From a virus, in IMG/VR virus record IMGVR_UViG_3300025327_000124, positions 1 through 28,984 of that record: a DNA stretch of 28,984 nt. One strand, 5' to 3'. Shown here piece after piece: positions 4,717-28,243 of this stretch. The stretch's first letter is position 1. The number at the start of each line of letters is the position of its first letter. The notes under the pieces were generated by a model. It ran no database searches, was not told the origin of the DNA, and saw only the letters and a list, made by a program, of their open reading frames with translations. A program made the position numbers and the translations under genes.

Positions 4717-5226
4717 ATGGCTCGGAAGGCGAAAAAGGTGCGCGCGAAGAGCACGCCCGTTCCCGCTGAGAAGAGCGGAAAGAAAGGGCGGGGAAATCGC
4801 GGGAAAGCGCTGGGCAGTCGGGCGACGCAATTCGGACCGAGCAATCCGTGGAGGTTCGTGAAAGGCCAGTCGGGGAATCCTGGCGGCCGGCCCAAGCTGT
4901 TGAGCGATGGCTATCGCGAGTGGCTGGCGGCCATGGATGAGCACGGAATCACCAATGCGGCATACGTGACATTGGCGGTAGGCGACAAGGCGCTCGTTGG
5001 TGATGACAGGGCCGTGCGCGAGATCCGCCAAGCGACAGAAGGCGAGCGGATCAGGACGTGGCGGGACGACGTGGTCGATCTGCTGCGTGAAGGAAAGGTC
5101 ACACCGGACGATGTTATCTCAGAATTTGGAGCCGACGAAGCTCAGCCGCTTATTATCGCCGCAGGCGTCCGCCGAGATGAAGGCGGATCGGCTGAAGGCG
5201 AGGGCGGCGAAGCAGGCGGCAAGTAG
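4717..5226 (+). CDS. DUF5681 protein, probable small terminase subunit
   Basis: A protein of about 169 aa with a very basic N-terminus (about 1-35) followed by the DUF5681 signature KGQSGNPGGRPK near residues 49-60. DUF5681 proteins usually sit directly upstream of large terminase genes, as here, and are taken as DNA-recognising small terminase subunits. The C-terminal 30 residues are Gly/Glu-rich. ATG at 4717 is used; GTG at 4714 is equally possible, both behind GGGGAC. The end overlaps the large terminase start by 50 nt. Confidence 0.7.
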   Translation: MARKAKKVRAKSTPVPAEKSGKKGRGNRGKALGSRATQFGPSNPWRFVKGQSGNPGGRPKLLSDGYREWLAAMDEHGITNAAYVTLAVGDKALVGDDRAVREIRQATEGERIRTWRDDVVDLLREGKVTPDDVISEFGADEAQPLIIAAGVRRDEGGSAEGEGGEAGGK

Positions 5227-6580
5227 CGCATCATTGCCCAAAGCGCCCGACCTGGTCGCCTGGATCGAATCTGAGGTCACCATCGAAGACCCCCAGGCGA
5301 CGATGGGCATCGGCGCGATTATTCCCTTTGCCTTGTGGCCGACGCAGCGCGATGCGCTGGCGTCCATTGCCAGCGAGAATCAGATGATCATCCTCAAGGC
5401 TCGGCAGCTTGGCCTATCCTGGCTGGTCGTGTCTTATGCGCTATGGCTATGCCTGTTCCACCCTGGACGATCGGTATTGGTGTTCAGCCGCGATCTCGAC
5501 TCGGCGACCGAGATGGTGCGCCGGGCTGTTGGCGTCTACAAGCGCCTGCGTCGCAAGCCGCCGGCGCGCGCGACCATCGATAACACGAAGATGATCGCCT
5601 GGGACAATGGCAGCCGGATAAAATCATTCGCTGCGACCGAGGATGCCGGGTCGTCGTTCACCGCGTCGCTGACCATCCTGGATGAGTTCGCCAAGATGCA
5701 CTATGCCGAGTCGCTCTACACATCCGTCAAGCCAACGATCGACGACGGCGGGCGCATCGTGATTATCAGCACGGCCAAGGGCGAAGATAATCCATTTCAC
5801 CGCCTATGGAATGGCGCGGTGTCCGGCGCGAACCATCTCAAGCCGATCTTCCTGCCCTGGAGCGCGCGGCCCGACCGCAATGCGGCCTGGTACGCGCGGG
5901 TCGAGACTGACGCCATCAGCCCGGCCCATCACAAGCAGGAATACCCGGCATCGCCGGATGAAGCATTCACCACACTCGGAGAGGAAGCCTTCCTGCCCTC
6001 GGCCATGTGGTGGGACGCCTGCCGTGAAAGCCTGCTGCCGCTGGGCCGCGAGACGATCATGCTGGCTGCCGATGCCGCGACGGTCTCAGATTCGTTCGGG
6101 TTGGTGGGCGTGACCAGCCATCCGACGCGCGCAGGCGATTACGCGGTGCGCTACGCGCGCGAGTGGAAGCCGGCGGGCGGGATGATCGATTTCTACGCGG
6201 ACGATGGGCCTTACGCCGAAGTCGTGCGCCTGTGCCGTGAATACAACGTGGCGCAGTTGGTGTATGACCCGACCGAGATGCGTCAATTCGCCCTGCGCCT
6301 GTCCAACGAGGGTGTGGTCTACTGTCACGAGTTCAGCCAGCAGGCACAACGGTTAGAGTCAGACAAGAACCTGTACGACATGATCCTGGCACGCCGGTTG
6401 GCACATGATGGTAACGAAGCGTTGCGGGCGCACGTGCTGAATGCCAACCGTAAGCCGGAGCACGATGAGAAGAGCGATCTCCATCGGCTGCGCATTGTGA
6501 AGCGTGCAGCAGACAAAAAGATCGACCTTGCGGTAGCGTTGTCCATGGCACTGTACAGTGCGCAGGCGGTTGGGCTGTGA
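5177..6580 (+). CDS. terL: Terminase large subunit
   Basis: A 467-aa packaging motor that cuts and pumps DNA into proheads. The ATPase half shows a Walker A-like LKARQLGLS (about 73-81), Walker B LTILDEF (about 165-171) and the coupling motif STAKG (about 198-202), followed by EYPASPDEAF. The RNase H-fold nuclease half has an acidic residue in AADAA (about D299), a DPTEM segment, and a C-terminal KKIDLAVAL. ATG at 5177 is chosen because it limits overlap with the small subunit gene; the upstream ATG at 5111 would add 22 residues. Both halves look complete. The stop overlaps the GTG of a tiny membrane protein. Confidence 0.93.
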   Translation: MKADRLKARAAKQAASSASLPKAPDLVAWIESEVTIEDPQATMGIGAIIPFALWPTQRDALASIASENQMIILKARQLGLSWLVVSYALWLCLFHPGRSVLVFSRDLDSATEMVRRAVGVYKRLRRKPPARATIDNTKMIAWDNGSRIKSFAATEDAGSSFTASLTILDEFAKMHYAESLYTSVKPTIDDGGRIVIISTAKGEDNPFHRLWNGAVSGANHLKPIFLPWSARPDRNAAWYARVETDAISPAHHKQEYPASPDEAFTTLGEEAFLPSAMWWDACRESLLPLGRETIMLAADAATVSDSFGLVGVTSHPTRAGDYAVRYAREWKPAGGMIDFYADDGPYAEVVRLCREYNVAQLVYDPTEMRQFALRLSNEGVVYCHEFSQQAQRLESDKNLYDMILARRLAHDGNEALRAHVLNANRKPEHDEKSDLHRLRIVKRAADKKIDLAVALSMALYSAQAVGL

Positions 6581-12768: not shown

Positions 12769-14235
12769 ATGCAACCACAGATTGATTATCAGACGCTTGC
12801 CGGCGCACTGCTTGCACAGTTCACAGGTAAGCGAGAAAAGACCGTGCCGAGCAGCACGCCCACCACATTCTATGGTCACGGGCCGGGTGGGCTGTTCTCC
12901 GGCGCAGGTCTGTCGCAGCAGATGTTCAGCGCGATGGTGCTGCCGGGGCTGGGCTTGCAGTCCATGCTGCCGGCCCGCCCTTCGCGCGACGCCAATCCGC
13001 AGTACGGCCTCCTCACTGGGGTAACAGCCTCCAGCGGCAGCGAGCCAACGGGTGTGTGTGACGACCCGCCCAGTTCAGGTCTTGCCAAGCTGTGCACGCA
13101 CTCGTTCGTGTTTGGGCGGCAGTCGCGGCAGTCCCGCGTGTTCGAGCTGGACCGCATGGGCCTGCTCACAAACCGGGGCGAGTTCACCGACTTTGTGCTG
13201 GCGGGCGACCCGTTCAACAACCAGCTAAGTGGGGCGGCTGTGCCGACCATGCCCGGCATGAACATGCAGCAGGTGGCGCGCAACGAGATGGCGAAGGCGA
13301 TCTTCGAGATGGGTGTGGGGTGGTCGCGCGACTTCGCGCAAGAGTTGTACACCGGCAACCCAACCAACAACACTGCGCAGGGCGGCCGCAAGTACTTCTA
13401 CGGTCTGGACGTCTTGATCAACACCGGTTATCGTGACGCGGTCACGGGGCAGGCTTGCCCGGCGGCAGACAGCACCGTGCGCTCGTTTGGCGGACTCAAC
13501 GTGGCAGACAACGGCGCCACTCTGGTGCGCACAATGAGCAACATCTACCGCAACCTGCGCTTCCTGGCAAGCAAGGCTGGGCTGGAGCCGGCCTCCTGGG
13601 TGCTGGCGATGCCGTGGTCGCTGTTCTACGAGATCACGGAAGTGTGGCCCTGCGCGTACCACTCGTACCGCTGCATCGTGTCCACCGGAAGCACCAACAT
13701 GATCATGTCAGCCAGCGATCAGCTGAAGCTGCGTGACGACATGCGCGGCGACATCTTTAACCGTACCGGGCAGTACTTGATGATCGATGGCCAGATGGTG
13801 CCTGTAGTGATCGACGACGCCATCGCCGAGACGGACAACGGCGGCGGTGGGTTCACCAGCTCGATCTACTTCATCCCGCTCAAGGTTGTGGGCAACACAC
13901 TCGTTACGTTCTTCGAGTACATGCCCTACGATGTGCCAGGTGGCGCGATGGACGCGGCGGCGTACTTCGCCCCGCCCGGCACCTACTACGTGAGCGATGG
14001 TGGACGGTTCTTGTGGCACCGCAAGCCGCCGACCAACTTCTGCGTGCAGCTGCTCGCCAAGACCGAGCCGCGACTGTTGCTGCTCACGCCTTACCTGGCG
14101 GCGCGGCTGACCAACCTGTTCTATGTGCCGGTGCAGCACGAACGCAGCGGGTTCACCGATAGCAGCTACTTCGCGGATGGCGGGCGCACGGACTACCTGG
14201 GCTACGGGCCGAGCTTTTACTCACCGACTTCGTAG
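12769..14235 (+). CDS. Major capsid protein
   Basis: A 488-aa protein following the protease-scaffold gene with a strong GGAGGAA ribosome-binding site seven bases before the ATG, as expected for the most abundant virion protein. It is rich in Gly, Asn, Phe and Tyr with no transmembrane helix. The N-terminal 70 residues are the likely delta-like or flexible arm, and the remainder has the mixed alpha/beta character of HK97-fold capsid proteins. I do not recognise a specific family. The gene is followed by a long perfect hairpin that may limit or protect the transcript. Confidence 0.75.
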   Translation: MQPQIDYQTLAGALLAQFTGKREKTVPSSTPTTFYGHGPGGLFSGAGLSQQMFSAMVLPGLGLQSMLPARPSRDANPQYGLLTGVTASSGSEPTGVCDDPPSSGLAKLCTHSFVFGRQSRQSRVFELDRMGLLTNRGEFTDFVLAGDPFNNQLSGAAVPTMPGMNMQQVARNEMAKAIFEMGVGWSRDFAQELYTGNPTNNTAQGGRKYFYGLDVLINTGYRDAVTGQACPAADSTVRSFGGLNVADNGATLVRTMSNIYRNLRFLASKAGLEPASWVLAMPWSLFYEITEVWPCAYHSYRCIVSTGSTNMIMSASDQLKLRDDMRGDIFNRTGQYLMIDGQMVPVVIDDAIAETDNGGGGFTSSIYFIPLKVVGNTLVTFFEYMPYDVPGGAMDAAAYFAPPGTYYVSDGGRFLWHRKPPTNFCVQLLAKTEPRLLLLTPYLAARLTNLFYVPVQHERSGFTDSSYFADGGRTDYLGYGPSFYSPTS

Positions 14236-14330: not shown

Positions 14331-15041
14331 ATGTTCGCCGATGGCATACCCAACCCTTACGCGGCGGTCACACCGCAGCCTGCTAACGGTCGCCCGTTCG
14401 TTGCAGTAATCATCCCTACACGTGATCGAGCGCAGATCATCCTCAATGCGATCGCCTCGCTCAAGGAGCATCTCAGCTATGCCGGCGAGATCCGTTACTT
14501 CGTGGGCTGTGATGGAGTGGACGATACTCCATCACGGTTGCGTTCTGAGTTCCCCGATGTGACAGTGCTCGAAGGGCCTAAGCGTGGCCTGGGTGCCAAC
14601 CTGAACACCCTCATCCGTGCCGCCGATGCAGACCTGGTCTATCAACAGGACGACGACTGCTACTTGCTCAAGACAGTGGATCTCACCCTCTACGCAGACA
14701 AGCTGTTGGCTGACGCAACAGTGGGCTGGATACGCTTCATGTGGAACGGTTGCCACCGTTTCACAGCTGACCTGGACGGGCAGTACTGGCGTGTGCGGTG
14801 GGATTCGCCGGAGCACTACTTGGCCAGCAACCGTATCCATCTGAAGCACCGGCGATTCCACGAGTGGTTTGGTTTGTACCCGGCAGACCTGAAAACTGGT
14901 GAGACTGAAGAGGCTTGGTGTCACCAGGTGAACGGTATCGCCCATGAACGGGGCGGGCCACAGATACTCATTCCACTGGAGTGTGACAGTGAGCATGGGT
15001 GGGATCATGTGGGCCACTCATTCCAGTTGCAAGGATTGTAG
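14331..15041 (+). CDS. Glycosyltransferase, GT2 / GT-A fold
   Basis: A 236-aa protein beginning, after a 20-residue lead, with FVAVIIPTRDRAQ (23-35), the standard first strand of GT2 enzymes. It has a DDD motif at 107-109 (the DxD that binds metal and nucleotide sugar) and an acidic/Trp-rich second half. It should transfer a sugar from a nucleotide donor. Start is supported by GGGAG five bases upstream. It opens the glycosylation block, and codon choice is less G+C-biased than in the neighbouring capsid gene. Confidence 0.8.
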   Translation: MFADGIPNPYAAVTPQPANGRPFVAVIIPTRDRAQIILNAIASLKEHLSYAGEIRYFVGCDGVDDTPSRLRSEFPDVTVLEGPKRGLGANLNTLIRAADADLVYQQDDDCYLLKTVDLTLYADKLLADATVGWIRFMWNGCHRFTADLDGQYWRVRWDSPEHYLASNRIHLKHRRFHEWFGLYPADLKTGETEEAWCHQVNGIAHERGGPQILIPLECDSEHGWDHVGHSFQLQGL

Positions 15042-15043
15042 CG

Positions 15044-15787
15044 ATGGACTTATCAGTCGTGGTGTGCACCTGGCGGCGTGATGCAGATATGTTGCTGCAT
15101 AGTGTGCATACATTAAGCAACCAGACTAACCCACCGCTGGAGATTATCGTGGTGGACACCAACACCGAAGCCTCATTCGTGCAGGCTAACTACAATGCCC
15201 TGCTGCCCTACCCGCTGGTGCGGCTGATCTGTAGACCACGCAGCCCATTCAACTTGGCGAAAGGCATGAATGTGGGTATCAAGGCAGCGCGTGGACAGTA
15301 CGTCATGGCAACTTGCATGGAAATGCTGTTCAGCCCTAACGTGGTTGAGGTGTTGGCTTCTAAGGTGCAACCCGGTTGCTGGATTGAATCTGCGTGCGCC
15401 GTGCTATCCAGGGATACCCCTATTGGCCCAATCGAGACTGTGCACTCGCGTTGGGCTGAGTTATGTGCCGCAGCAGACGCCTACTCCGCACCGCACCGCC
15501 CGGCCACCGGTGCGCTTATGGTAGCCGAGCGTGACTGGTGGCACTCCATCCTCGGCTACGACGAGGTGCGCTATCCGTATGAGAATCCCGACGTGGATAA
15601 CGCACGGCAAGCGGCGTTGTCTGAGCTGAGAACGATGTACCTGGGGTGGCCGGAATGCCAGTTGATCCACCCGGAGCATAGCCCACTCAATGCTGGCTAC
15701 GAGCAGGGTGGCGAGTGGTTTGCATCTGTTACGCTGGAGCAGATACGTGGACGTCCACGCAACCCGAACGGTTGGGGTGAGGGATGA
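15044..15787 (+). CDS. Glycosyltransferase-like protein (GT2), degenerate DxD
   Basis: A 247-aa protein with a clear GT2 N-terminus (LSVVVCTWRRDAD, then IIVVDTNTE with D at about 38). Where most relatives carry the DxD loop after the GQYV strand, this one reads ATCMEML, so the canonical metal-binding aspartates are missing. It may be inactive, use another acidic residue, or serve a binding role. ATG at 15044 lies two bases after the upstream stop with AAGGA before it. It is coupled to the next gene by an ATGATG overlap. Confidence 0.7.
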   Translation: MDLSVVVCTWRRDADMLLHSVHTLSNQTNPPLEIIVVDTNTEASFVQANYNALLPYPLVRLICRPRSPFNLAKGMNVGIKAARGQYVMATCMEMLFSPNVVEVLASKVQPGCWIESACAVLSRDTPIGPIETVHSRWAELCAAADAYSAPHRPATGALMVAERDWWHSILGYDEVRYPYENPDVDNARQAALSELRTMYLGWPECQLIHPEHSPLNAGYEQGGEWFASVTLEQIRGRPRNPNGWGEG

Positions 15788-16614
15788 TGCGAGTCGGGCT
15801 GCGTGATGGGTCGTTCACCACTGCCTCCATGTCGGGCGATCTGGATGTGCCAAAGTACTTCGAGTGGGATCGCCAAGGCATGCCGCGTTTCTTCACGGAC
15901 ATTTGCTTGAACCAGGTATTCGTGTATCCGCACCCACGCGTGGCAGTGCTAATTGAGGCCCCACCTTTCCGCACCGAGTTCTACGAGTACGTTCAGGCGC
16001 ACGAGGATGAGTTCGATTACATACTCACCTACATGCGTTCGCTGCTGGAGGCACACGATCCACACAAGTGGCTGTTCTACCCGCACTGTGGCACCCGTGT
16101 ACCCTTGGATGAGTGGGGTGTGTTCGGAGAGAAGAACAAGCAGGTGAGCATGATCGCCAGCAACAAGAACGAGGCCACGGGTCACCGTCTACGCCATGCT
16201 GTCGCCGCAAGGCATGGTGACCGATATGGTGACCGAGTGGAGGTGCTGGGCAGTATCAATGGGCATTACGTGAGCAAGCAGGAAGGGCATGCACCTTACC
16301 TGTACTCCATCGTGGTGGACGCCGAGTGCAACGACTGGTGCTTCTCCGACCACCTGCTCGACGCACTAGGGTTGTGCACTGTTCCAATTTATTGGGGTTG
16401 CCCGGATATTGGAAAGTTTTTCGACACCCAGGGTATCATCCCATTCTCTCACATCGATGAACTTGACGGTATCCTGGGTGGTCTTTCGCGCGACGACTAC
16501 ATCACGCGCTGGCCTGCGCTGGTGCGCAACATGCAGACTGCTCGACAATATCGCATCGCTGAGGATTGGATATTCGAGCACTACCCGTTCCTGTTCGAGG
16601 GGCTTGCCCCGTGA
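15784..16614 (+). CDS. GT10-like (fucosyltransferase-type) glycosyltransferase
   Basis: A 276-aa protein. The C-terminal half has the block YLYSIVVDAECNDW, then SDHLLDAL and VPIYWGCPDIGKFF. This is the arrangement of the donor-binding half of alpha-1,3-fucosyltransferases (GT10), which read F/Y-x-[IV]-x-[FV]-E...TEKLxDAL...PVYWG. The conserved Glu/Lys of the classic motif are partly replaced, so the donor may not be GDP-fucose. The N-terminal half contains YILTYMRSLLE, matching the usual 'D-x-V-x-T-[YH]' region. Start ATG 15784 overlaps the previous stop. Confidence 0.6.
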   Translation: MMRVGLRDGSFTTASMSGDLDVPKYFEWDRQGMPRFFTDICLNQVFVYPHPRVAVLIEAPPFRTEFYEYVQAHEDEFDYILTYMRSLLEAHDPHKWLFYPHCGTRVPLDEWGVFGEKNKQVSMIASNKNEATGHRLRHAVAARHGDRYGDRVEVLGSINGHYVSKQEGHAPYLYSIVVDAECNDWCFSDHLLDALGLCTVPIYWGCPDIGKFFDTQGIIPFSHIDELDGILGGLSRDDYITRWPALVRNMQTARQYRIAEDWIFEHYPFLFEGLAP

Positions 16615-17519
16615 ACGTGCTGATTGTTGGCGGCGCGGGCTATCTCGGATCACACGTCGTGCGTGCCCTGGCTGCAATCGGGGAGCAAGTCACGGTGCTG
16701 GACAACCTGACCTACCAGGACGAATATCGCGGGCCGGCGGACTTCGTGTTCGGTGACGTGACCGATTCGGAACTCGTCGACCGCCAGGTCAGGCGGCACG
16801 ATGGTGTCGTATGGCTGGCGGCCATTGTAGGCGACGCTGCCTGCGCCGCAGATCCAGCGCGCGCTATCGCCGTCAACCAGGAATCGGTCAAGGCCCTGAT
16901 TGGCTGCGGCAAGCCGATCGTATTCACCTCGTCCTGTTCGGTCTACGGGGTGAATGGCGGTGAAGCTCACGAAGATGCGCCGCTCAAGCCGCTATCAGTG
17001 TATGCCGAGACGAAGATCAAGGCCGAGGGTTATCTGCGCGACGAGCGCGCGGCCATCCTGCGGCTGGGAACGCTGCATGGCGCGAGCGAGCGGATGCGCT
17101 TCGACCTGGTGGTCAACGCCATGACGCGCGACGCGGTCGAGCAGGGTTTGGTTCAGGTGTATGGCGGACACCAACGCCGCCCGCTGTTGGCGGTCGGGGA
17201 TGCAGCCGACTTCATCGCGCTGCAGATTATGTCCGAAGTCGGCCAGACGGGCGTATGCAACGTCTCCGAAGAGAACCTGACCATTGCGCAAGTCGGCGAG
17301 CGAGTCTCACGGCTGACGGGCGCGGACTTGAACCTCATCGCCGCTGAGTCGGAAGACCGGCGCGATTACGAGGTGTCCACGCGCAAGGCGCGCGCGTACG
17401 GATTCGATCCGGCGCGCTCCGTCGATGACTCGATCCGGGACATCTCCGGCCTGCTCAGATCGGGACGTATCAAGGATCCCTACGCGCCGCGCTACACGAA
17501 CGTTTCGAGGTTCGCATGA
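16611..17519 (+). CDS. NAD-dependent sugar-nucleotide epimerase/dehydratase
   Basis: A 302-aa extended short-chain dehydrogenase/reductase acting on nucleotide sugars in the cytoplasm. The Rossmann motif GGAGYLG occupies 7-13, the TSS triplet is at about 106-108, and the catalytic pair is Y131-x3-K135 (YAETK). An LAAIVGD segment after strand 4 is typical of GalE-like and dehydratase-like members. Start is GTG at 16611, overlapping the previous TGA. It could make the keto or epimerised sugar used by the next genes; the exact substrate cannot be told. Its G+C-rich codon use contrasts with the three transferase genes before it. Confidence 0.85.
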   Translation: MNVLIVGGAGYLGSHVVRALAAIGEQVTVLDNLTYQDEYRGPADFVFGDVTDSELVDRQVRRHDGVVWLAAIVGDAACAADPARAIAVNQESVKALIGCGKPIVFTSSCSVYGVNGGEAHEDAPLKPLSVYAETKIKAEGYLRDERAAILRLGTLHGASERMRFDLVVNAMTRDAVEQGLVQVYGGHQRRPLLAVGDAADFIALQIMSEVGQTGVCNVSEENLTIAQVGERVSRLTGADLNLIAAESEDRRDYEVSTRKARAYGFDPARSVDDSIRDISGLLRSGRIKDPYAPRYTNVSRFA

Positions 17520-17971
17520 ATGGTAACTCGGTGCCGCACCTGCTGGTAGGCGGGGCCGCAAATGACACCCGTGGGTCAGTGGGGTTCGTCAACTCGTTTC
17601 ACTTCACTGACGTGAAGCGCTTCTACACTATCGAGAATGCGCAGGTGGGGCTGCCGCGTGCATGGCATGGACATCGCCGTGAGGGGAAATACGTGTTCGT
17701 TGCCGCAGGGAGAGCGGTGATCTGCGCTGCAGACATGAACACCGGGCGCGTGCTGCGGTACGAGCTGGACGGGAGTGAGCCGGCCGTCTTACATATACCG
17801 GCCGGCTGGGCCAACGGCTCGATGTCGCTGGAGCCGGGAACGAAGATTCTTCACTTCTCGACCTCGACTCTGGAGGAGTCCGAGAACGACGACGAGCGAT
17901 TCCCGTTGGAGGCGTTTGCGGACGTGTGGCACGACGGGCACAGCCTGGAACACATGAGGGAGCACGGATGA
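17516..17971 (+). CDS. WxcM/RmlC-like cupin, sugar-nucleotide isomerase or epimerase
   Basis: A 151-aa single-domain cupin. Diagnostic parts are a DTRGSVGFVN opening, KRFYTIENAQ, then RAWHGHRREGKYVFV (the RmlC-like R-x-W-x-x-H block), an IPAGWANGS segment and a terminal NDDERF...W. This pattern is common to the WxcM-like enzymes that isomerise or epimerise dTDP-4-keto-6-deoxy sugars. It lies between an epimerase and a DegT aminotransferase gene with ATGA overlaps on both sides, which fits a 3-ketoisomerase (FdtA/QdtA role) feeding the aminotransferase. Confidence 0.7.
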   Translation: MNGNSVPHLLVGGAANDTRGSVGFVNSFHFTDVKRFYTIENAQVGLPRAWHGHRREGKYVFVAAGRAVICAADMNTGRVLRYELDGSEPAVLHIPAGWANGSMSLEPGTKILHFSTSTLEESENDDERFPLEAFADVWHDGHSLEHMREHG

Positions 17972-19027
17972 TTCCACTATTCAAGCCCTACGTCGCTCCG
18001 CGCGAGGTGTTGCTGCCGGCATTGGAAGCGACGCTCTATTCCGGCCGCCTGGCCGAAGGCGAGCGGGTCGAGGAGTTCGAGACGGAATTTGCGCGCTTCA
18101 TCGGCGCAGAACATTGCGCTGCGCTCGGATCGTGCACCGCCGCGCTGCACGTGGCGCTGCTGGTGAGCGGGTCGGTCGCCGGGACGGAAGTCATTAGCAC
18201 CCCGATGACGGCGGAGCCGACCAATCTGGCGATCTACCACGCCGGCGCCAGCATCGTGTGGGCGGATGTGCTGCGGAACGGCAACATCGATCCTGACAGC
18301 GTGGCGGAGCATGTCACGCCGAACACGCGCGCGATCGTGGTGGTGCACTACGGCGGCGTGCCTGCGCCGATGGACGCCATCATGAGCATCGCCCGCAACC
18401 ATCACCTATACGTGATCGAGGACTGCGCCCATGCACTCGGCGCGCGCTGGCAAGGCGCTCACGTTGGGACGCTCGGCGACTTCGGCGCGTTCTCATTCCA
18501 GGCCATCAAGCACATGACCACCGCCGATGGCGGGATGCTGGCGATCGACGACGATAGACACATGCCAGAGGTGCGCGTGCTGCGCTGGTTTGGCATCGAC
18601 CGCAAGAGACCGCGCGCCGAGGTCGACGTCGAGGTGGCGGGCTATAAGTACAACATGAACGACGCTATCTCGCGCACAGTCCGTGATCGACCTGCACGTC
18701 CACAACGGGCGCTGGTTCACCGCCAACCTGTACGGCCTCCATGACCTTGAGGTCGCGCCGGTTGAGGGCGAGCCGTCGTACTGGTTCTACACCATCCTGA
18801 CGCCCCGGCGCGATGAGGTGATGGCGAAGCTGCTCGACGCGGGGATCGCGTGCGGGCTGGTGCACAGGCGCAACGATTATCATTCGGTGTTCGCGCGTAG
18901 CAACCATGTCCGCCTGCCCGGGCTGGATGGGTTCTGGCGCACCGCCCTGCATATCCCCTGCGGTTGGTGGTTGACGGATTCTGATCGTGATTGCATCGCG
19001 CAGACGATCAAGGACGCGCTGAAATGA
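17968..19027 (+). pseudogene. DegT/DnrJ/EryC1 aminotransferase, frameshifted
   Basis: A PLP-dependent sugar-nucleotide aminotransferase split over two frames. The first frame (17968-18744) carries YSGRLAEGE, GSCTAALH, EDCAHALG (D152, H155) and the PLP lysine K181 in SFQAIKH. It loses homology after KYNMNDAIS near 18670. The second frame (+1) picks up at about 18671 and runs to 19027 with VIDLHVHNGRWF, SYWFYTI and a normal C-terminal ...HIPCGWWLT. Compared with relatives, only about four residues seem to be missing at the junction, so a small out-of-frame deletion explains it. A sequencing error or recoding cannot be excluded. ATG 17968 has GGGAG upstream and overlaps the cupin stop. Confidence 0.75.
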
Positions 19028-19034
19028 AGGAACC

Positions 19035-19967
19035 ATGGTACTGATCGCTGCTTTCCATCAGGACATCCCCATTGAGGGTGACCGCCCATCAGCCTGGACG
19101 ACAAACACGATTCATTCCACCGCCCGAATCGGCGCCGACGTCGACATGGGCCGCTACAACGAGATCGGCGAGCGCGTGATTATCGATGGCCGCGTGACCC
19201 TCGGAGACTGCAACCGGATCGAGGATGACGCACGAATCCTCGCAGGCAAGGGTCACATCGTTATCGGCGACTGGGCGGTGATGCACAACCACTGCTTCCT
19301 GGGGCCGGGTGATATCGAGATCGGGCACAACCTGTGGCTCGGACAAGGTGTGTGGCTGGATGGCACAGGCGGATTGAGGCTCGGCAACGGTGTGCGTATC
19401 GGGACAGAGAGTCATGTGTGGACGCATGCAGCCGCCGCCGAACAGTTTGAGGGTGGGCTGTACCACACTGCATCCACTGTGCTTGAGGATGATGTGTGGT
19501 TGGTAGGTGACACGGTGACAGTCAACCCCGGTGTGATAATGGCCGGGCGTTCGGTGGCATTGGCGCACTCTGTGGTTACCAAACATACCCTGCCGGGCAA
19601 GACCTATGCCGGCATCCCTGCACGCGAGGTGGATATGCCATTCTGGCGAGAGGTTTCTCGTGCCCAGAGGTGGCAGATGATGCTGCATTGGGTGGCCGGA
19701 TTCTGCGAAGAGTCGGGTGATCACTTTCGTGTTATGAGTAGGGAGTACGATCAGATCGAGATACATCGCGGTTCGGAATTGCTGGCTATTGGGTTCAATG
19801 TGGTACGCCCGGAGCAAGTTATTTCTGCTTCTGCACATGACCTTGAACAAGTTACATTGTTTGACCTGACTACCAAGCGATACACTAAACGTTTGACTGC
19901 ACTGGAGCGCGAGTTCTACCGCTTCGTCTACGGTAACAAGATACGCTTCGTGCCGGAGACATCGTGA
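19035..19967 (+). CDS. Hexapeptide-repeat acyltransferase
   Basis: A 310-aa protein. Residues about 20-200 form a left-handed beta helix with hexapeptide repeats (for example IGADVDMGRYNEIGERVIID and LEDDVWLVGDTVTVNPGV), ending in the usual VVTKHTLPGKTYAGIPAR. This is the O/N-acetyltransferase fold, typically using acetyl-CoA. Residues about 205-310 form an extra C-terminal domain I do not recognise. It follows the aminotransferase by seven bases with AAGGA before ATG, fitting N-acetylation of the new amino sugar (FdtC/QdtC role). It has lower G+C than both neighbours. Confidence 0.75.
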   Translation: MVLIAAFHQDIPIEGDRPSAWTTNTIHSTARIGADVDMGRYNEIGERVIIDGRVTLGDCNRIEDDARILAGKGHIVIGDWAVMHNHCFLGPGDIEIGHNLWLGQGVWLDGTGGLRLGNGVRIGTESHVWTHAAAAEQFEGGLYHTASTVLEDDVWLVGDTVTVNPGVIMAGRSVALAHSVVTKHTLPGKTYAGIPAREVDMPFWREVSRAQRWQMMLHWVAGFCEESGDHFRVMSREYDQIEIHRGSELLAIGFNVVRPEQVISASAHDLEQVTLFDLTTKRYTKRLTALEREFYRFVYGNKIRFVPETS

Positions 19968-22705
19968 AAGTCTGCATCCGACCGCAACTCAAGAGCGATG
20001 CGCCCCTGCCGCCGGCGGGCATTGACCGGGTGCTATCGGCGCAGATCAAGCACTTGCCTGCCTTCGGCATCGAGCTGACCGACGACCCGCTGCAGGCCGA
20101 GGTGTGGGCCGGGCACACGCGCCGCTTCGACATGCCAGCGCTGGATGTTCTCCATTCCCACGGCGCGTATTTCACCGGGGACGCCGGCTCTGGAACATAC
20201 ACCGATTGGCACTACCGCGTGAACGATGGCCTGGTCGAGGCGTTCCGCGAGGCGCGCATGATCAGCGTTCCGTCGCGATGGGTGGCGCGCATGTTCCAGC
20301 GCGACATGCGCATCGATCCAGTTGTGATCGGGCATGGAATCGACTTCGCGGATTGGGAGCCGGGCGAGTCGAAGGGCTATGTGTTGTGGAACAAGAACCG
20401 CAGCGGGGATGTGTGCAGCCCGCAGCCGGCGCACGAGCTGGCCGCACGCGGTGCGCCGGTCGTGAGCACTTTCGCTTGGAGGGGCGAGCAACCCAGGAGC
20501 CTGACCATAATCGGCTCGATGCAGCACGCGCAGATGCGCAAGCTGATCGCCGAATGCAGCGTGTACCTGGCGACGACGAAGGAGACCTTCGGCATCGGGA
20601 CGCTGGAGGCGATGGCCTGCGCCAAGCCGGTTCTTGGCTTCGATTGGGGCGGCACGGCGGACATCGTGACGCACGGCGTGGACGGCTGGCTGGTCAAGCC
20701 GGGCGACTTCGACGCGCTGATGGCCGGCTACGTCAAGGTCATGGCGCGCCGCACTGAGATGGGCGCGGCGGCGCGCGAGAAGGCGCGCGGGTACGACTGG
20801 ACGAGTGTCATCGGGCGGTACGCGCAGCTCTACGCTGAGGTCCTGGAGGGCAAGCACGCCGAACGCGCGGGCGTGGCGGTCGTCATCACCTGTCACAATT
20901 ACGCGCGGTATGTGGGCGAGGCTATCGAGAGCGTGCTAAACCAGACACGCCCGCCCGACGAAGTGATCGTCGTGGACGATGGATCGACCGATGAGAGCCT
21001 GGAAATCATCGGGAAATACGCCGACCGGGTGCATGTTATCGCCCAGGCGAACCAAGGCGTGGCGCACGCGCGCAATGCGGGCGTCGCCTCGACCCGGCAG
21101 CCGTTTATCGTGTGCCTGGACGCGGATGATAAGCTCGACCCGCGCTTCGTAGAGGCTACCCTCGAGGAGATCCGCTACGAGCGCCCGCTCGGCATCGCCT
21201 ATACCGGCCTGGGCCTTTTGCGCGATGGGGGACAGCCAGAATCGCATCCCTGGCCGCCCGACTTCTCCTGGTCGATCCAGGCACGCGGAGGCGTGCCACC
21301 GGCCAACTGCATTCCTTCGGCCTGCATGTTCCGGCGCGAGATGTGGGAGCGTGCCGGGGGCTTCCGGCAGGAGTACGCGCCGGGCGAGGACGCCGAATTC
21401 TGGGTGCGCGGCCTGTCAGTCGGATTCACCGCGCGCAAGGTGTCGTCCGCGCCGCTGTTCATTTACCGGCTGCATGATGGCAGCGTTTCGCGCACGCGGG
21501 AATATGTCCGCATCGACGACCGCCTGCCTTGGCTGCGCGACGGCGAATACCCGATGGCGGCGCCGGCGCGCCACGCGCCGCGCATCCGTTCCTATACCCG
21601 CCCGCGCGTGAGCGTGATCGTCCCGGTTGGGCCAGGACACGCTGAGTATCTGCCCGATGCGATCGAATCCTTGCTCGGCCAGACGATGCGCGATTGGGAA
21701 ATCATCTGCGTGCCAGACGGTGAGCGCATCCCGGACGACCTGCGGCGGCGTTACCCGTTCATTGAGTGGGTCGAAGGCAAGGATAGCAAGCGCCGGGGGC
21801 CGGCCCATGCGCGCAACTTGGGCGCGAAGCGGGCCACCGCATTATTGCTGCTGTTCTTGGATGCTGACGATTTGCTCGACCCGAACGCGCTGGAGATGAT
21901 GTGCCGATCGCACGTCGAGTCTGGCGGGCGCTATGTGTACTGCGACGCGCTGATGTGGGAGCGCGACGGCTCAACGCGCACGCAGCCGGCGCGCATCTAC
22001 GAGCAGGTCGTGTGGCGCGGCGACAAGCCCGAGGCTTGGCCGCACTCGGTCACCGCGCTCGTGCCGCGCGCCTGGTTCGAGGCGGTTGGCGGGTTCGACG
22101 AGAAAGCGGCGGGCTGGGAGGAGGGCGACCTCTACACGCGCCTGGCCATCGCGGGCTATTGCGGCGTGCGTCTGCCCAAGCCACTCCTGATCTATCGAAC
22201 CTATAGCGGCGTGATGCGCAAGTTGAGCCACGCGCAACGCGGGAAGATTCTGGCCGATGTGGATCGCAAGTACGGGGAGGCGAGCATGTCATCCTGCTGC
22301 GGTGGCAACTCCGACGCGCTACTGGCCGCCAAACGCGCGCTGGCGGGCATGGCGCAGGCGGCTGAGGAGAGCCTTGTGCCGGAGGACAAGACGCGCCTGA
22401 TGTACGTTGGTGAGAACGTGGGCAGTATTTCGTTCTTTGGCAAGGAGGGCCGGGTGTACCGGGGTGGGCACAACGAGGTGGATGGTCTAACCCTGGTGCA
22501 CAACGATGACGTGGATCGGTTGCTCGGCACGGGCAAGTGGGAGCGCGCTCCGGCGCAGCCGAGAGCTGTGCAAGAGCCAGCGGTGCTGGTGCTGCCCCAC
22601 CGCCCTACCCTATCGAAGCAAGACAAGCCCGCTGGGGACACACCGCCAGCCGCTGTTCCCGCGCCGGTCCCAGCCGAGGCGGGAGCGGAGATCGAATGGG
22701 CCTGA
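19964..22705 (+). CDS. Trimodular glycosyltransferase with phage-type C-terminal domain
   Basis: A 913-aa protein with three transferase domains. Residues 1-297 are GT-B fold, GT4-like, with the E-x7-E motif at E207/E215 in KETFGIGTLEAM. Residues about 304-520 are a GT2 domain (VAVVITCHNYARY, VVDDGSTD, LDADD at 385-389). Residues about 548-760 are a second GT2 domain (VSVIVPVGPG, LDADD at 632-636) whose first acidic loop reads CVPDGE. Residues about 805-865 are a small domain (MYVGENVG, VYRGGHNE, DVDRLL) of a kind found in phage structural proteins, followed by a Pro/Ala tail. Start GTG overlaps the previous stop. It could build a short oligosaccharide, with the last domain perhaps docking on the virion. 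Confidence 0.85.
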   Translation: MKVCIRPQLKSDAPLPPAGIDRVLSAQIKHLPAFGIELTDDPLQAEVWAGHTRRFDMPALDVLHSHGAYFTGDAGSGTYTDWHYRVNDGLVEAFREARMISVPSRWVARMFQRDMRIDPVVIGHGIDFADWEPGESKGYVLWNKNRSGDVCSPQPAHELAARGAPVVSTFAWRGEQPRSLTIIGSMQHAQMRKLIAECSVYLATTKETFGIGTLEAMACAKPVLGFDWGGTADIVTHGVDGWLVKPGDFDALMAGYVKVMARRTEMGAAAREKARGYDWTSVIGRYAQLYAEVLEGKHAERAGVAVVITCHNYARYVGEAIESVLNQTRPPDEVIVVDDGSTDESLEIIGKYADRVHVIAQANQGVAHARNAGVASTRQPFIVCLDADDKLDPRFVEATLEEIRYERPLGIAYTGLGLLRDGGQPESHPWPPDFSWSIQARGGVPPANCIPSACMFRREMWERAGGFRQEYAPGEDAEFWVRGLSVGFTARKVSSAPLFIYRLHDGSVSRTREYVRIDDRLPWLRDGEYPMAAPARHAPRIRSYTRPRVSVIVPVGPGHAEYLPDAIESLLGQTMRDWEIICVPDGERIPDDLRRRYPFIEWVEGKDSKRRGPAHARNLGAKRATALLLLFLDADDLLDPNALEMMCRSHVESGGRYVYCDALMWERDGSTRTQPARIYEQVVWRGDKPEAWPHSVTALVPRAWFEAVGGFDEKAAGWEEGDLYTRLAIAGYCGVRLPKPLLIYRTYSGVMRKLSHAQRGKILADVDRKYGEASMSSCCGGNSDALLAAKRALAGMAQAAEESLVPEDKTRLMYVGENVGSISFFGKEGRVYRGGHNEVDGLTLVHNDDVDRLLGTGKWERAPAQPRAVQEPAVLVLPHRPTLSKQDKPAGDTPPAAVPAPVPAEAGAEIEWA

Positions 22706-22971
22706 CGCTGGACGCTGATACGATTCTCGTGCTTGGGCTGGCCACTTACCGCCTGGCCTGGCTGATTGCCCGTGATGAGGGGCCGTTCGGAGTGTGCGCC
22801 TGGCTGCGCGGACATATCGATCCACACCAACGCACCTGGGTGGGCCGTGGGCTGAACTGTGCCGGGTGCGTTTCATTCTGGTTGGCGCTGGTTGCAACCT
22901 TACTGTTGCGCGGTTCCTGGCTGGATTGGCTGGCAATGTCTGGTCTGGCTGCATGGTTAGCGAGGTTCTGA
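22696..22971 (+). CDS. DUF1360-like small membrane protein
   Basis: A 91-aa protein with an N-terminal hydrophobic helix (about 7-26, LATYRLAWLIARDEGPF), a conserved CAGC near 56-59, and two further hydrophobic stretches to the C-terminus. The LATYRLxxLIxxDxGPF and C-x-x-C-x-S-x-W features are those of DUF1360, a common phage and Firmicutes membrane family of unknown role. ATG 22696 has GGAG six bases upstream and overlaps the transferase stop by 10 nt. Confidence 0.65.
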   Translation: MGLTLDADTILVLGLATYRLAWLIARDEGPFGVCAWLRGHIDPHQRTWVGRGLNCAGCVSFWLALVATLLLRGSWLDWLAMSGLAAWLARF

Positions 22972-23784
22972 GTGGCACCCAATTTTCAAGCGGCTGGAAC
23001 TGTTGTTGCCAACACGGCTGGTGCGAATGTGGCATGGCCTACCCACATCGCCGACGATGTAGGTGCGCTGATTATTGAGTACGATTCAAATGGTGGAATT
23101 GATCCTTCTGGACTTACGGGGTTTACTCAGTTTACGGGGTCTCCCATAAAGACCGGAACCACACCCGCAACAGCCACGGCGCTCTCAGTGTGGTGGCGCA
23201 GGGCGACAGGTAGTACAGAATCTGATGTGGCTGTCCCGGACTGTGGAAACCACTTTGTTGCCCGAATTGCAACTATCAGAGGGTGTATAGCCAGTGGTGA
23301 CCCGTTCAACGTTGTTTCCTCTGGTGCTTTCAGTGACACAGAGAACACGAGCCAATCCATACCGGGTGCGACGACAACTTTAGAAGATTGCCTGGTTCTC
23401 CTCCTATGCGTTAACGGTGGCAACTTCACAACAAATGCTTGGTCGAGCCTTGCCAATGCAGACTTATCTAGTCTGACCGATCAGGCCAGTTTCCACGACA
23501 CCATAGGCAGTGGGGGTGGATCGTTGGTTGCCACAGGCGTAAAGGCCAGCAGTGGCACTTACGGAACAACGACAGTCACGTCACAGCGCACGTCGGCGGA
23601 GGCATCAATCTCGATTGCGTTTAAGCCACCGGTGTCTGTGGGGCAACCGACACTCGTCCGCACGCAGGGTGTGCCAACGGGTGCAGGTCACAAGGACAGG
23701 CCAGGCCGGTGGAACTTCAAGTGCTGGCCGGGTTGGAGTCGCAGGAAGTCCGGGTTATTGGTTCCGGCAGGAGTGTACGCATAA
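22972..23784 (+). CDS. Fibre or decoration-like virion protein
   Basis: A 270-aa Ser/Thr/Gly/Ala-rich, beta-strand-rich protein starting with GTG directly after the previous stop. Its style (small residues, a GSGGGSLVATG turn, SAEASISIAFKPP near the end) is that of phage fibre, lectin-like or capsid-decoration proteins. The last 45 residues contain GQPTLVRTQGVPTG...DRPGRWN, a motif repeated in the 77-aa protein at 25875. The base composition is distinctly lower in G+C than the glycosyltransferase gene upstream. The exact role is unknown. Confidence 0.55.
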   Translation: MAPNFQAAGTVVANTAGANVAWPTHIADDVGALIIEYDSNGGIDPSGLTGFTQFTGSPIKTGTTPATATALSVWWRRATGSTESDVAVPDCGNHFVARIATIRGCIASGDPFNVVSSGAFSDTENTSQSIPGATTTLEDCLVLLLCVNGGNFTTNAWSSLANADLSSLTDQASFHDTIGSGGGSLVATGVKASSGTYGTTTVTSQRTSAEASISIAFKPPVSVGQPTLVRTQGVPTGAGHKDRPGRWNFKCWPGWSRRKSGLLVPAGVYA

Positions 23785-24155
23785 TGGAAACCACCAAACA
23801 ACTCAAGGTTGGCAGTGTGTACCGTATCCATCACAGCAGCAAAGGCGCTTTCGTGGCGCAACTCATCGACATCGTTAAGGCTGACGAGGGTGATGAGTAC
23901 GACGACGTGTTGCTCAGGGTGAAATACGATGTACGCGCAGGCACCGATCAGATCGGTTTGTCTGTCATCCCTGGCAAGCAGGAGGTCAGGGTGTCCCGGC
24001 TACGACCCTCCAAGATCATCAGCATCGAGGAGTTGGAGGGCGAGGATTGGCTGCGGCAGATCAAGGTGCGGGAGGAGGAGCAGCCCGTGCTGGCTGCAAC
24101 CGTGGTAGAGCACAGCTTGGTTGACAAGCTGAAGTCCCTGTTCAAGAGGAGTTGA
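23784..24155 (+). CDS. Hypothetical protein, 123 aa
   Basis: A small protein with an N-terminal beta-rich part (KVGSVYRIHHSSKGAF...AQLIDIV, reminiscent of a small barrel) and a charged Glu/Lys-rich C-terminal helix ending in LVDKLKSLFKRS. Start ATG 23784 overlaps the previous stop (TAATG) with AGGAG upstream. The function is unknown. It lies among fibre genes and immediately before the intron-containing gene. Confidence 0.6.
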   Translation: METTKQLKVGSVYRIHHSSKGAFVAQLIDIVKADEGDEYDDVLLRVKYDVRAGTDQIGLSVIPGKQEVRVSRLRPSKIISIEELEGEDWLRQIKVREEEQPVLAATVVEHSLVDKLKSLFKRS

Positions 24156-24159
24156 TCAC

Positions 24160-25874
24160 ATGGCAGATTGGCCGCCACTCAAGAATGCAGCGTTCACCGT
24201 CACGTTTCCCATCGACTAGGTGGCCTTGCCAGGAAACTGGCAAGTGAGAATCCCTTCTGATTACTGGGAACGCCTGAGATGGCTACCCGAGGCAAGCAGC
24301 GTAAGCGTGCAGCCGCAACGACTGAGTGAAGGGACACCCTACAGGGTGATGCGACAGTCTGAACACTGGTGAAATGAAGCCAGTGAGGGAGACCCGAAGC
24401 GGACTCCCCGCCTGAGTAATCAGGTCATCAAGTAACAGAATGCTACGACGCAGATGGTGATCTGGTAACAGCTGCAAGCGCACTTGACTCCGAAGTCTCC
24501 AAAGACGGTGGTGACTTCACAGATGTTACACCAGGTGAGGCCACCGAGATCAACACATCGTCCGGTGTGTACAAGCTGGCACTCAGTGCAACCGAGATGA
24601 ATGCCGATATCGTGGCAACCATCACGAAGACCGGCACGGCGGGTGCAAAGACATCGGTCAACGTGATGTACACGGTCACCCGTCAGTTGAAAGACCTGAC
24701 CTTCCCGAATGTTAGTGGGCGTGGCATAGACATCGATGCGTCGGGTGGTGCGGAGGTGGGCACCTTCCAGGCCGGCGCCATCACCGCTGCTGCGTTCACA
24801 GCCGGCGCCATCGACGCTGCGGCCATTGCCACAGGTGCATTCGATGCGGATGCCCTGGCGGCCGATGCGGTGACCGAGATCCGCTCACTCGTGAGCGGCA
24901 CGGCGGACAGTGGTAGCACGACGACGATGGTGGATACAGCCCGCACCGAAGCCGACACCGACTACTGGAAGGGTGCGTGGATACTGTTCACCAGTGGCAA
25001 CATTTCAGGACAATGCCGTCTGATCACCGCGTTCGATGTTGCACTTGACCAGATCACCTTCACACCGGCCACTACGCAGGCGGTGTCTACACAGACCTAC
25101 GAAATTCTTCCTGCGGCGCGTGGTGACGCGGCGCTCTGGCTTGGCGTAGCAGTCAACGCGCTCCAGTCCGGGCGTGTGGATGCCTCTGTGGGTGCGATGG
25201 CAGCAGACACGCTCACGGCGGCGGCCATTGCGGCCGATGCTGCACCCGAACTGCGCGGTGCGCTGGTAGCCGGAACAGCCGATAGCGGCAGTACCACAAC
25301 GATGGTCGATGCGGCCCTGACACAGGCAGATACCGATTACTGGAAAGGCTGCCTAATCCTGTTCACCAGCGGCACGATCAGTGGTCAGGTGCGATTGATC
25401 ACCGCGTTTGATACAGCGCTCGACCAGATCACCTTCTCGCCGGCGACCACGCAGGCAGTCGGTGTGAACACCTACGAAATTCTTCCGGCTGGTCGTGCTG
25501 ACGTTGCGCTGTGGCTAGGTGCGGCAGTGAATGCACTGCAGTCTGGCCGTGTGGATGCGTTCGTTGGCGCGTTTGCGTCAGCGGTTATCGCGTCGGGTGC
25601 GTTCGCAGCCGATGCCCTTGACGCAGCCGCCCTGGCGACTGATGCCGTGAACGAGATTGCGGACGGCATCATGACCCGTGCATCAAGCAACTGGGAAACG
25701 ACTGCGCCAGTTAAGTCCCTGGGTGCGGCGGTGATGAAGGCAGTGCATCGTATCCGGGACAACGCGGGCACGCTCGAGATCTATCGCAGCAACGGCACCA
25801 CGGTGCACGCGTCGCAGACCATCACCACCGATGTGGCTAACCAGCCTATCGACGAGTTGACTGGAGCGGTGTAA
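24160..25874 (+). CDS. Fibre/baseplate-like protein, split by a group I intron
   Basis: Exons 24160-24212 and 24443-25874 join to a 494-aa protein. The first exon is behind a strong AGAGGAG site. Joining completes an Ile codon and yields FTVTFPIYDADGDLVTAA, then DSEVSKDGGDF and LALSATEMNAD, a continuous domain found at the N-terminus of many phage fibre-like proteins. The rest is Ala/Thr/Asp-rich and contains two copies (period 125 residues) of a beta module with GTADSGSTTTMVD, LFTSG.ISGQ and ATTQAV...YEILPA. Without splicing, translation stops after 19 residues at TAG 24217. The product is likely an adhesin or tail-tip component. Confidence 0.8.
24213..24442 (+). ncRNA. Group I self-splicing intron, 230 nt, ORF-less
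   Basis: Core helices can be drawn by eye. P1: 24209-24212 with 24220-24223, containing the U24212-G24220 wobble at the 5' splice site. P2: 24225-24232 with 24237-24244, GAAA loop. P3: 24251-24257 with 24328-24334. P7: 24320-24324 with 24355-24359. P8: 24335-24339 with 24344-24348. P9: 24364-24369 with 24380-24385. A P9 extension pairs 24411-24415 with 24420-24424 around GUAA. The last intron base is G24442, and the first three exon bases (CTA) pair with 24217-24219 as P10. Splicing restores the reading frame exactly. P4-P6 lie within about 24262-24316. No homing endonuclease is encoded. The compact form with a GAAA-capped P2 recalls small bacterial introns; the subgroup is not assigned. Confidence 0.9.
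24897..25568 (+). repeat. Two tandem copies of a 375-bp coding module
   Basis: The coding modules beginning at 24897 and 25272 are 375 bp (125 codons) apart and share most residues, including TADSGSTTTMVD, ADTDYWKG, RLITAFD, NALQSGRVD. Many synonymous changes separate them, so the duplication is old and protein-level selection has kept the module. Confidence 0.8.
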
Positions 25875-26660: not shown

Positions 26661-26942
26661 ATGAGACGCTTAATTCTCGGTGTTCTGATTGCTGTCGTGT
26701 CCGTCATCTTACTCGTGCCGGGGGCGATCAACGCAACCGAATCACCTCTGTACACCAAGGGGATGGATAGACCCTGTGAACCGGGTGAACTCAGTGTGCT
26801 GTGCAGCCCGGTCAGCACGCCCGTTACATCGAGACCACCCATTACAACCGTTCGGGATGAACCCTCTGCCCTTGCAAGGAGCCTGGCCTATCAAAAGTTC
26901 TGCCGTATCCTGTGGATCACCTGGCATGTGAAATGTCCATGA
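26661..26942 (+). CDS. Secreted hypothetical protein, 93 aa
   Basis: MRR followed by a strong hydrophobic stretch (about 4-20) and a plausible signal-peptidase site near NATES makes this a secreted or anchored small protein. The mature part is Pro/Ser/Thr-rich with four Cys residues that could form disulphides. The ribosome-binding site AAGGGAGAAG is strong. Its end overlaps the adaptor gene start (ATGA). An exported protein among tail genes is unusual and could act on the host surface during lysogeny or infection. Confidence 0.6.
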   Translation: MRRLILGVLIAVVSVILLVPGAINATESPLYTKGMDRPCEPGELSVLCSPVSTPVTSRPPITTVRDEPSALARSLAYQKFCRILWITWHVKCP

Positions 26943-28243
26943 TGCCGCTCACCCCACTCGACGCGTTCAGGCAGTATATGCAGCTTAACCCCTACTGGTT
27001 CTGGGGCCTGGCGAACAAGGACGTACCGTTACTGCCTGACTGCGATACACTGGTCCGCGAGTACGGCTGGCAGGCTGGCGGGGCAGCCGGGCGCGATGAC
27101 ATCCGCGCTATGCTGGAGCAGGCTGAGTCCATGCTGCGTGAACAGTTGGGGTACTCCATTGCGCCGCATTACGTGACGGAAACATTGCCCTTTCCGCGTC
27201 ACCACGACATGGGCCAGAACCGAATCGGATACGCCGGGTCTGATGGGCGCTGGCTGGCGCTCCAGTTGGGTGAGGCGCGCACGCTCGCCGCCGGCGTCGA
27301 GGCACTCGCCCTGATTGGACAGGCCACCGCTCTCGGCGGCGACCTGGCCTTCTCGGACGCGGACGGCGACGGGCTGGACGACACCTTCACGATCGTGATG
27401 GCGACTACCGTCACCGACCCAAACGAGATCGCGGTGTACTTCACCATCGATGATCGGCTGGATGGTGAGCCGGTGGGTGAGCGCTGGCGCGTGCAGCCGG
27501 TCAAGGTCAGCATCAGCGCAGGCACGGCGACTATCCGGGGGCGCTATTGGACGCTGGTCAAGCCGATCAAGCACCAGCGTGTCGGGCTGGGCGCGCTCGA
27601 CCCGATGGAGGTGATTGGCGGCGTGTCGGCCTCGTTCCGCGAGAACGTGGCAACCGAGCTCGACGTGTACCGGCGCCATTGCGACCCAACCGGGATCACG
27701 ACGGCGACGGCGCAGGCAATGCTCGTCTGGGAGACCTCACCCTGGCCAGAGATCGCCACCGCTGTGAACGGCGCGACATTCGCCGGCGACGTGTTCGATC
27801 CGGCGGCGCAAGCCTACGCTATCGCGCGCGCGACGATGCGGGACGCGCGGCGGGGCATCGTTGGCCTGGGCGAGGCAACCTGGGACGCGACCAACTCCAA
27901 GTGGGTGCTGGCGCCGATGTCTTTCACGCGCCCGCCCGATCGAGTGGTCGTGCGCTACCTGGCCGGCGATGCGCTGGTCGGAGGTCAGGTCAACCCCCAC
28001 TGGGCGCGGGTCGTCTCGCGCTTCGCGGCGGCACTGGTCGGGCGGCGCATCTGCGGCTGCGAGGGTATATCGCGCGAGTTCAGCGACGCGCAAATTGACC
28101 TGGCCTTCAGCGGCAACGCGAACACAGAGAAGTTCCTGATCGACCCAGGCGAGTTGAAGAACCCCTTCGGCACCCGGCGCGGGATGATCGAGGCGTGGCG
28201 TGCGGTGCAGGATATGGCGGAGATTCGCGCAGTGTTGGCGTAA
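26939..28243 (+). CDS. Head-tail adaptor-like protein
   Basis: A 434-aa protein. The first 90 residues (DDIRAMLEQAESMLREQLGYSIAP near the middle) resemble the helical bundle of HK97 gp6 / SPP1 gp15-type adaptors. A Ca-binding-like loop DADGDGLDD sits at about residues 140-148 within a beta-rich insert, and the C-terminal third is mixed, with RRICGCEG. The gene lies just before the tail terminator-like gene. ATG 26939 overlaps the upstream stop; ATGs at 26933 and 26942 are alternatives. It is much longer than classic adaptors, so it may be a fusion. Confidence 0.55.
   Translation: MMPLTPLDAFRQYMQLNPYWFWGLANKDVPLLPDCDTLVREYGWQAGGAAGRDDIRAMLEQAESMLREQLGYSIAPHYVTETLPFPRHHDMGQNRIGYAGSDGRWLALQLGEARTLAAGVEALALIGQATALGGDLAFSDADGDGLDDTFTIVMATTVTDPNEIAVYFTIDDRLDGEPVGERWRVQPVKVSISAGTATIRGRYWTLVKPIKHQRVGLGALDPMEVIGGVSASFRENVATELDVYRRHCDPTGITTATAQAMLVWETSPWPEIATAVNGATFAGDVFDPAAQAYAIARATMRDARRGIVGLGEATWDATNSKWVLAPMSFTRPPDRVVVRYLAGDALVGGQVNPHWARVVSRFAAALVGRRICGCEGISREFSDAQIDLAFSGNANTEKFLIDPGELKNPFGTRRGMIEAWRAVQDMAEIRAVLA

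Follow-up and report, generated by a model that had tools for sequence, protein, structure and literature searches.

A start site nested in a multi-glycosyltransferase gene downstream of the capsid gene in an uncultured tailed-phage lineage, and a possible role in virion glycosylation

Results

A block of sugar genes behind the capsid gene

The window, by which we mean the whole stretch of DNA that was analyzed, is a 28,984-base fragment from an uncultured phage and carries a large terminase gene at 4997-6580. A block of open reading frames at 14331-22705 begins 95 bases 3' of the major capsid gene. Four of its genes encode transferases of sugars, namely two GT2 glycosyltransferases, a GT10-like protein and a GT4-GT2-GT2 protein; the others encode an epimerase/dehydratase, a DegT aminotransferase, a cupin and an acyltransferase. 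The features of this part of the window are listed below.

12769-14235, + strand: major capsid protein, HK97 fold (AF2 model matches; homologues in 51 viral contigs)
14331-15041, + strand: GT2 glycosyltransferase (PF00535, 44.5 bits, cut-off 23.3)
14999-15787, + strand: GT2 glycosyltransferase (PF00535, 42.4 bits; ATG 15044 is a possible true start)
15784-16614, + strand: GT10-like (fucosyltransferase-like) protein (no Pfam match of its own; relatives in L003 and L057 match PF00852)
16566-17519, + strand: NAD-dependent sugar epimerase/dehydratase (PF01370, 106 bits; GTG 16611 is a possible true start)
17516-17971, + strand: cupin, FdtA/RmlC-like, probable keto-isomerase or epimerase (PF05523, 22.8 bits, cut-off 23)
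17926-18744, + strand: DegT sugar aminotransferase, N-terminal part, broken frame (PF01041, 243 bits, positions 9-226 of 360)
18683-19027, + strand: DegT sugar aminotransferase, C-terminal part, other frame (81% identity to the C-terminal part of the L002 protein)
19035-19967, + strand: left-handed beta-helix (hexapeptide) acyltransferase (phmmer match to hexapeptide acetyltransferases, 6.5e-10; NCBIfam WcaF-type)
19964-22705, + strand: 913-aa multi-glycosyltransferase (Pfam; conserved catalytic motifs; conserved place 3' of the capsid gene)
19964-20857, + strand: GT4 domain of the 913-aa protein (Pfam, over cut-off)
20861-21583, + strand: first GT2 domain of the 913-aa protein (Pfam, over cut-off)
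21593-22279, + strand: second GT2 domain of the 913-aa protein (Pfam, over cut-off)
22286-22705, + strand: D4, the C-terminal domain of the 913-aa protein

The protein encoded at 12769-14235 had no match in Pfam or PHROG. Its AF2 model, of modest confidence (mean pLDDT 61.5), matches HK97-fold capsids and encapsulins with Foldseek E values down to 1.8e-6, and the best structural match has a Z of 18.2 over 286 residues at 4.1 A. Judged by this modelled fold, the gene is the major capsid gene, in agreement with the original prediction that the block directly follows it. The open reading frames of the block share a single strand, and most of them overlap. Nine genes had been counted; all of the frames are present, and they make up eight genes, as two of them are halves of one aminotransferase.

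The proposed classes for the two GT2 proteins, the epimerase, the aminotransferase and the three-transferase protein all passed Pfam cut-offs, and the acyltransferase call was borne out by its phmmer and NCBIfam matches, the former including solved hexapeptide acetyltransferase relatives. For the cupin, an FdtA-type match was found just under its cut-off, along with a weak PDB match to RmlC-type epimerases. The GT10-like label holds only through relatives, as the L003 and L057 proteins match PF00852 weakly (1e-4, just below cut-off) and the window protein is 33% identical to that of L003.

A broken aminotransferase in a putative donor-sugar pathway

The frames at 17926-18744 and 18683-19027 encode the two halves of a single aminotransferase in different frames. 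This enzyme is intact as one 372-aa protein in L002, the nearest relative, whose capsid protein is 85% identical to that of the window; by comparison, the junction in the window is approximately 26 bases short. The frameshift would mean either that this step has been lost in the phage or that the assembly is wrong at the junction. A dTDP-3-acylamido-3,6-dideoxyhexose pathway of the FdtA/B/C or QdtA/B/C type would call for a cupin that acts as keto-isomerase, a DegT aminotransferase and an acyltransferase of the hexapeptide kind. Each of these classes is represented in the block, but the cupin falls just below its cut-off and the aminotransferase is broken. QdtB and QdtC were not the best PDB matches, and no NCBIfam equivalog was reached.

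The 913-aa multi-glycosyltransferase

Membership of the core protein in the GT4 and GT2 families is supported by both profile cut-offs and catalytic motifs: EX7E in the GT4 domain, LDADD plus ED in one GT2 domain and LDADD plus E in the other. These motifs are kept in 15 aligned proteins, with the exceptions of one LDADN and one LDCDD. The best PDB match of the core family profile (5.8e-50) was the chondroitin synthase K4CP (PDB 2z86), which likewise has two GT2 domains per chain; compared to K4CP, the core protein adds a GT4 domain and D4, and it sits in a phage head operon. Among cultured phages, no record covers 80% of the GT4-GT2-GT2 protein, and no match to the capsid protein was found. 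A scan with the core protein identified 347 contigs encoding a relative, the best 80 of which were kept.

The transferase core keeps its place while the sugar genes vary

Scans based on the capsid protein yielded 51 viral contigs and 5 MAG contigs. The MAG hits were assigned to Chloroflexi, Methanothrix, Nitrosotalea, Altiarchaeales and Saccharibacteria; as these phyla disagree, binning noise is likely, and the naming of a host from them was dropped. Most of the relatives that offer sufficient sequence have the GT4-GT2-GT2 gene downstream of the capsid gene. The new records from the core-protein scan show the same order, with the capsid gene upstream of the core gene in all 27 in which a capsid gene was found and downstream in none. 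The GT4-GT2-GT2 gene is often followed by a DUF1360-like small protein and then by a conserved protein of about 430 amino acids, and a tape measure gene lies further downstream in L018 and L016.

The region between the capsid and core genes varies among relatives, while the core stays between capsid and tail genes. The 103 proteins scanned from this interval included 18 with matches to epimerase, 12 to GT2 and 5 to DegT, as well as methyltransferases, sulfotransferases and GT10-like proteins. As this content changes from one relative to another, the transferase core is the fixed part of the block and the sugar genes are the variable part. Homing endonucleases (GIY-YIG with NUMOD3; HNH) immediately follow the capsid gene at L006:11528-12487 and L004:11476-12498, and a family of 240-280 amino acids present in 16 loci (including L006:12725-13549), with no Pfam or PHROG match, often directly follows the capsid gene; its acidic MMEDFW motif was noted by eye, and it may be another glycosyltransferase. 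In L022:9980-11710 and L023:9989-11698, the capsid gene is in two pieces approximately 190-210 bases apart, possibly from an inserted element or an assembly fault.

This setting bears on whether the transferases might instead glycosylate modified bases of the phage DNA, as in T-even phages. Phage glycosyltransferases are capable of base glycosylation, according to a reference cited in PMC12619734. The block, however, sits among head genes and carries donor enzymes for unusual sugars, and a thymidylate-synthase-family base hydroxymethylase was found in none of 36 related virus records, many of which are fragments and thus offer weak evidence. We regard modification of DNA bases as very improbable.

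D4 occurs both fused and alone

D4 is predicted to form a small beta-barrel (core pLDDT above 90) with a Cys-rich N-terminus, MSSCCGG in the window. Its fusion partner is a single GT2 domain in L017, L049, L051 and L053; in the other fused forms it is the complete GT4-GT2-GT2 protein. In L027 and L052, relatives without the transferases, it is a stand-alone gene just after the capsid gene, and in L139 the transferase ends and D4 follows as a separate gene with the same kind of start. On an unrooted capsid tree, the full fusion is spread across most of the lineage, and the GT2-D4 and D4-only forms occur on several branches.

A sequence search with the stand-alone D4 of L027 yielded no match, and the D4 profile found no relative in the PDB. 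Fold searches gave weak, mixed matches, among them the gpFI C-terminal domain (Z 3.2), and comparison with the head-tail connector family phrog_748 was marginal, with 4 of 33 members matching at a best E of 0.003.

In three relatives, a TGA stands at a Cys position of the D4 motif within the transferase frame (L106:8356-8358, L121:8374-8376 and L154:8368-8370; contexts ARRG*GGN, PRRG*RGQ and PRRH*GGN, respectively). The frame stays open through a recognizable D4 in each, and a hairpin lies 3' of each TGA. This TGA may specify selenocysteine insertion or be an ordinary stop followed by a restart. A sub-threshold tRNA-Sec match in the L106 record was identified as tRNA-Leu by ARAGORN and rejected, and no phage tRNA-Sec was found for these relatives.

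A conserved start site nested within the transferase frame

An internal start codon at 22286, overlooked in the original prediction, marks the first residue of D4 within the transferase frame.

22276-22280, + strand: internal Shine-Dalgarno sequence GGAGG, 5 bases before ATG 22286
22286-22705, + strand: nested in-frame gene for a predicted free D4 of 139 aa starting MSSCCGG (conserved start plus Shine-Dalgarno sequence; stand-alone in L027 and L052)

Methionine is the first residue of D4 in each of the 32 discovery sites. A Shine-Dalgarno sequence of at least 5 bases precedes 26 of these 32 sites, compared to 7% of 511 in-frame ATGs elsewhere in these genes. In 300 synonymous redraws, such a sequence was seen at a mean of 8.9 and at most 15 of the 32 sites. 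The Shine-Dalgarno sequence before D4 falls in all three codon phases, and the amino acids upstream vary. In addition, seven of seven further records outside the discovery set have an ATG with a Shine-Dalgarno sequence of at least 4 bases.

A held-out set, made up of 52 distinct records that the core-protein scan had newly yielded, gave a similar result, as 48 have a start codon before Cys at the domain boundary, with a Shine-Dalgarno sequence of at least 4 bases at 47 of these sites and at least 5 at 41. The corresponding values in control windows from the same genes were 9.4% and 1.5%. This search took the best candidate within a 65-codon span and the control repeated the same choice; the records are related by descent, and the counts are therefore not fully independent. 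Judged by the in-frame, synonymous and held-out controls, neither chance nor conservation of the amino acids accounts for the internal start, and the start and its Shine-Dalgarno sequence are conserved beyond coding needs, as in a nested in-frame gene.

The start codon itself also varies. It is GTG in L092, L098, L101 and L110 and TTG in L147 and L024, and the starts picked in the held-out set include five GTG and three TTG. Given this interchange of ATG, GTG and TTG and the separate D4 start of L139, selection seems to act on the start site rather than on the residue. With a conserved start codon and Shine-Dalgarno sequence inside the fused frame, the gene at 19964-22705 probably yields both a transferase with a D4 tail and free D4. 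The internal start could instead be a mere relic of fusion, with D4 working solely within the transferase, for example in folding or substrate choice, and the unfused D4 of L027, L052 and L139 does make an origin by fusion plausible. A relic would be hard to reconcile with a start codon and Shine-Dalgarno sequence kept in approximately 85 divergent contigs beyond amino-acid need, or with start codons that interchange while the residue changes, and we consider it improbable. The nested start is a strong finding at the level of gene structure.

Downstream genes and the integrase

Two genes downstream of the block have relatives in the lineage.

22696-22971, + strand: DUF1360-like small protein (PF07098 at its cut-off; follows the transferase in many relatives)
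26912-28243, + strand: conserved 430-aa protein, possibly head-tail (relatives in 28 loci, after the transferase or D4)

The 430-aa protein has no family match. Between these two genes, most relatives are empty, while in the window 22972-25874 is occupied by two Ser/Thr-rich proteins. These had been called fibre genes and put forward as the acceptors of the sugar. The genes at 22972-23784 and 24567-25874 encode proteins with Ser plus Thr contents of 23% and 19%, respectively, and neither has a family match, which leaves the fibre label unproven. Nothing was found that supports fibres as the acceptor. An internal repeat (SGSTTTMVD...DYWKG...ILFTSG) was noted by eye in 24567-25874.

At the left end of the window, a tyrosine integrase gene is encoded on the minus strand at 223-1149 (PF00589, 110.6 bits at 286-765), opposite to the virion genes. 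The presence of this gene suggests that the phage may be temperate, and an integrase scored over cut-off in 3 of the 36 related virus records. This bears on an alteration of the host surface, the alternative already raised in the original prediction. Under this alternative, the transferases would modify a polysaccharide of the host in the course of infection or in the lysogenic state, for instance as a means of keeping out other phages. Bacterial surface polysaccharides rely on similar donor and transferase genes. The integrase, however, lies 13 kb away on the other strand, no clear membrane segment was found in any block protein, and the transferase is fused to a domain that elsewhere is a gene neighboring the capsid gene. 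A GtrA-type flippase was found in 0 of the 36 records, which is weak evidence given that many are fragments. Alteration of the host surface is judged unlikely, though less so than the fusion relic or DNA-base modification.

Discussion

In total, the block is best explained as a module for virion-directed glycosylation, whose core gene makes two proteins and in which D4 would act as a small protein of the head or as a docking domain, a reading that we hold to be somewhat probable. The transferases lie next to virion genes, with an HK97-fold capsid gene adjoining, which is the gene placement looked for in phage virion glycosylation. Several lines of evidence favor decoration of the virion over a change of the host surface: the multi-transferase gene holds its position 3' of the capsid gene in a diverse range of relatives, D4 is a stand-alone capsid neighbor where the transferases are missing, and neither GtrA nor thymidylate-synthase-type genes were found in the 36 records, with no clear membrane segment in the block. 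The idea that the virion is decorated, as originally predicted, is thereby strengthened, while its choice of fibres is not; the head appears at least as likely an acceptor.

Under virion-directed glycosylation, the donor enzymes would produce an acylated amino-deoxy nucleotide sugar; with its aminotransferase broken, this phage would skip the amination step or borrow an enzyme from the host. The two GT2 proteins, the GT10-like protein and the GT4-GT2-GT2 protein would then assemble a short cytoplasmic glycan. Translation from 19964 would give the transferase with D4, and translation from ATG 22286 would give D4 alone. As D4 keeps a start site of its own, follows the capsid gene in the relatives without transferases and sits between head and tail genes, its simplest role would be that of a small protein of the head or of a domain that docks onto the head. 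The fused copy of D4 would deliver the transferases to particles under assembly, while the original job of D4 would fall to the free copy. Alternatively, fusion to D4 could help the enzyme to fold or be regulated. More speculatively, the Cys-rich N-terminus of D4 might itself accept the sugar, or form a metal or redox site. This is a well-motivated proposal for the function of the block.

Phage virion glycosylation and nested head genes are both known, and what is new here is a transferase gene with a nested D4 start. In the literature covered, which takes in few of the subscription journals, we found no account of a glycosyltransferase gene that holds a nested start for a capsid-neighbor protein. 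In nested head genes of the lambda C/Nu3 type, an internal in-frame start yields a second product that shares the C-terminus of the first; in lambda the longer product is a protease, whereas here it is a glycosyltransferase. The O-antigen conversion genes (gtrABC) of temperate phages resemble the block in encoding GT2-type enzymes, and differ in that GtrA and a clear membrane protein were not found here and that the block adjoins the capsid gene.

Mycobacteriophages, by the accounts consulted (PMC12619734 and PMC11256854, citing Freeman et al. 2023, Cell Host Microbe), encode glycosyltransferases, and their capsid and tail tube subunits reportedly carry glycans. Phage-encoded glycosyltransferases are the common element, and the sole similarity found to the window was one GT2 domain at 29% identity. 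Unlike in mycobacteriophages, donor genes here lie between the capsid gene and the transferase, and the D4-fused multi-transferase with a nested start, present in the lineage of the window, was not seen in them. Chloroviruses and giant viruses are described as encoding donor enzymes and transferases for their own particle, in a cytoplasmic process rather than through the host Golgi (PMC5408694, PMC4691112, PMC9614988); their hosts are eukaryotic, and the likeness drawn here is one of described function.

Phage particles are customarily regarded as unmodified protein. We tentatively propose, at a confidence short of probable, that a large uncultured tailed-phage lineage glycosylates its own particles and that its transferase carries a small head protein with a nested start as a targeting domain. 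If true, decoration would be tied to head assembly. A fixed multi-transferase behind the capsid gene together with changing sugar genes, across a widespread lineage, suggests that virion glycans are under diversifying selection. The predicted free D4 is a conserved protein in approximately 85 contigs that gene callers missed, and the nested gene suggests a concrete, testable way in which a phage could direct glycosylation to the particle that it builds.
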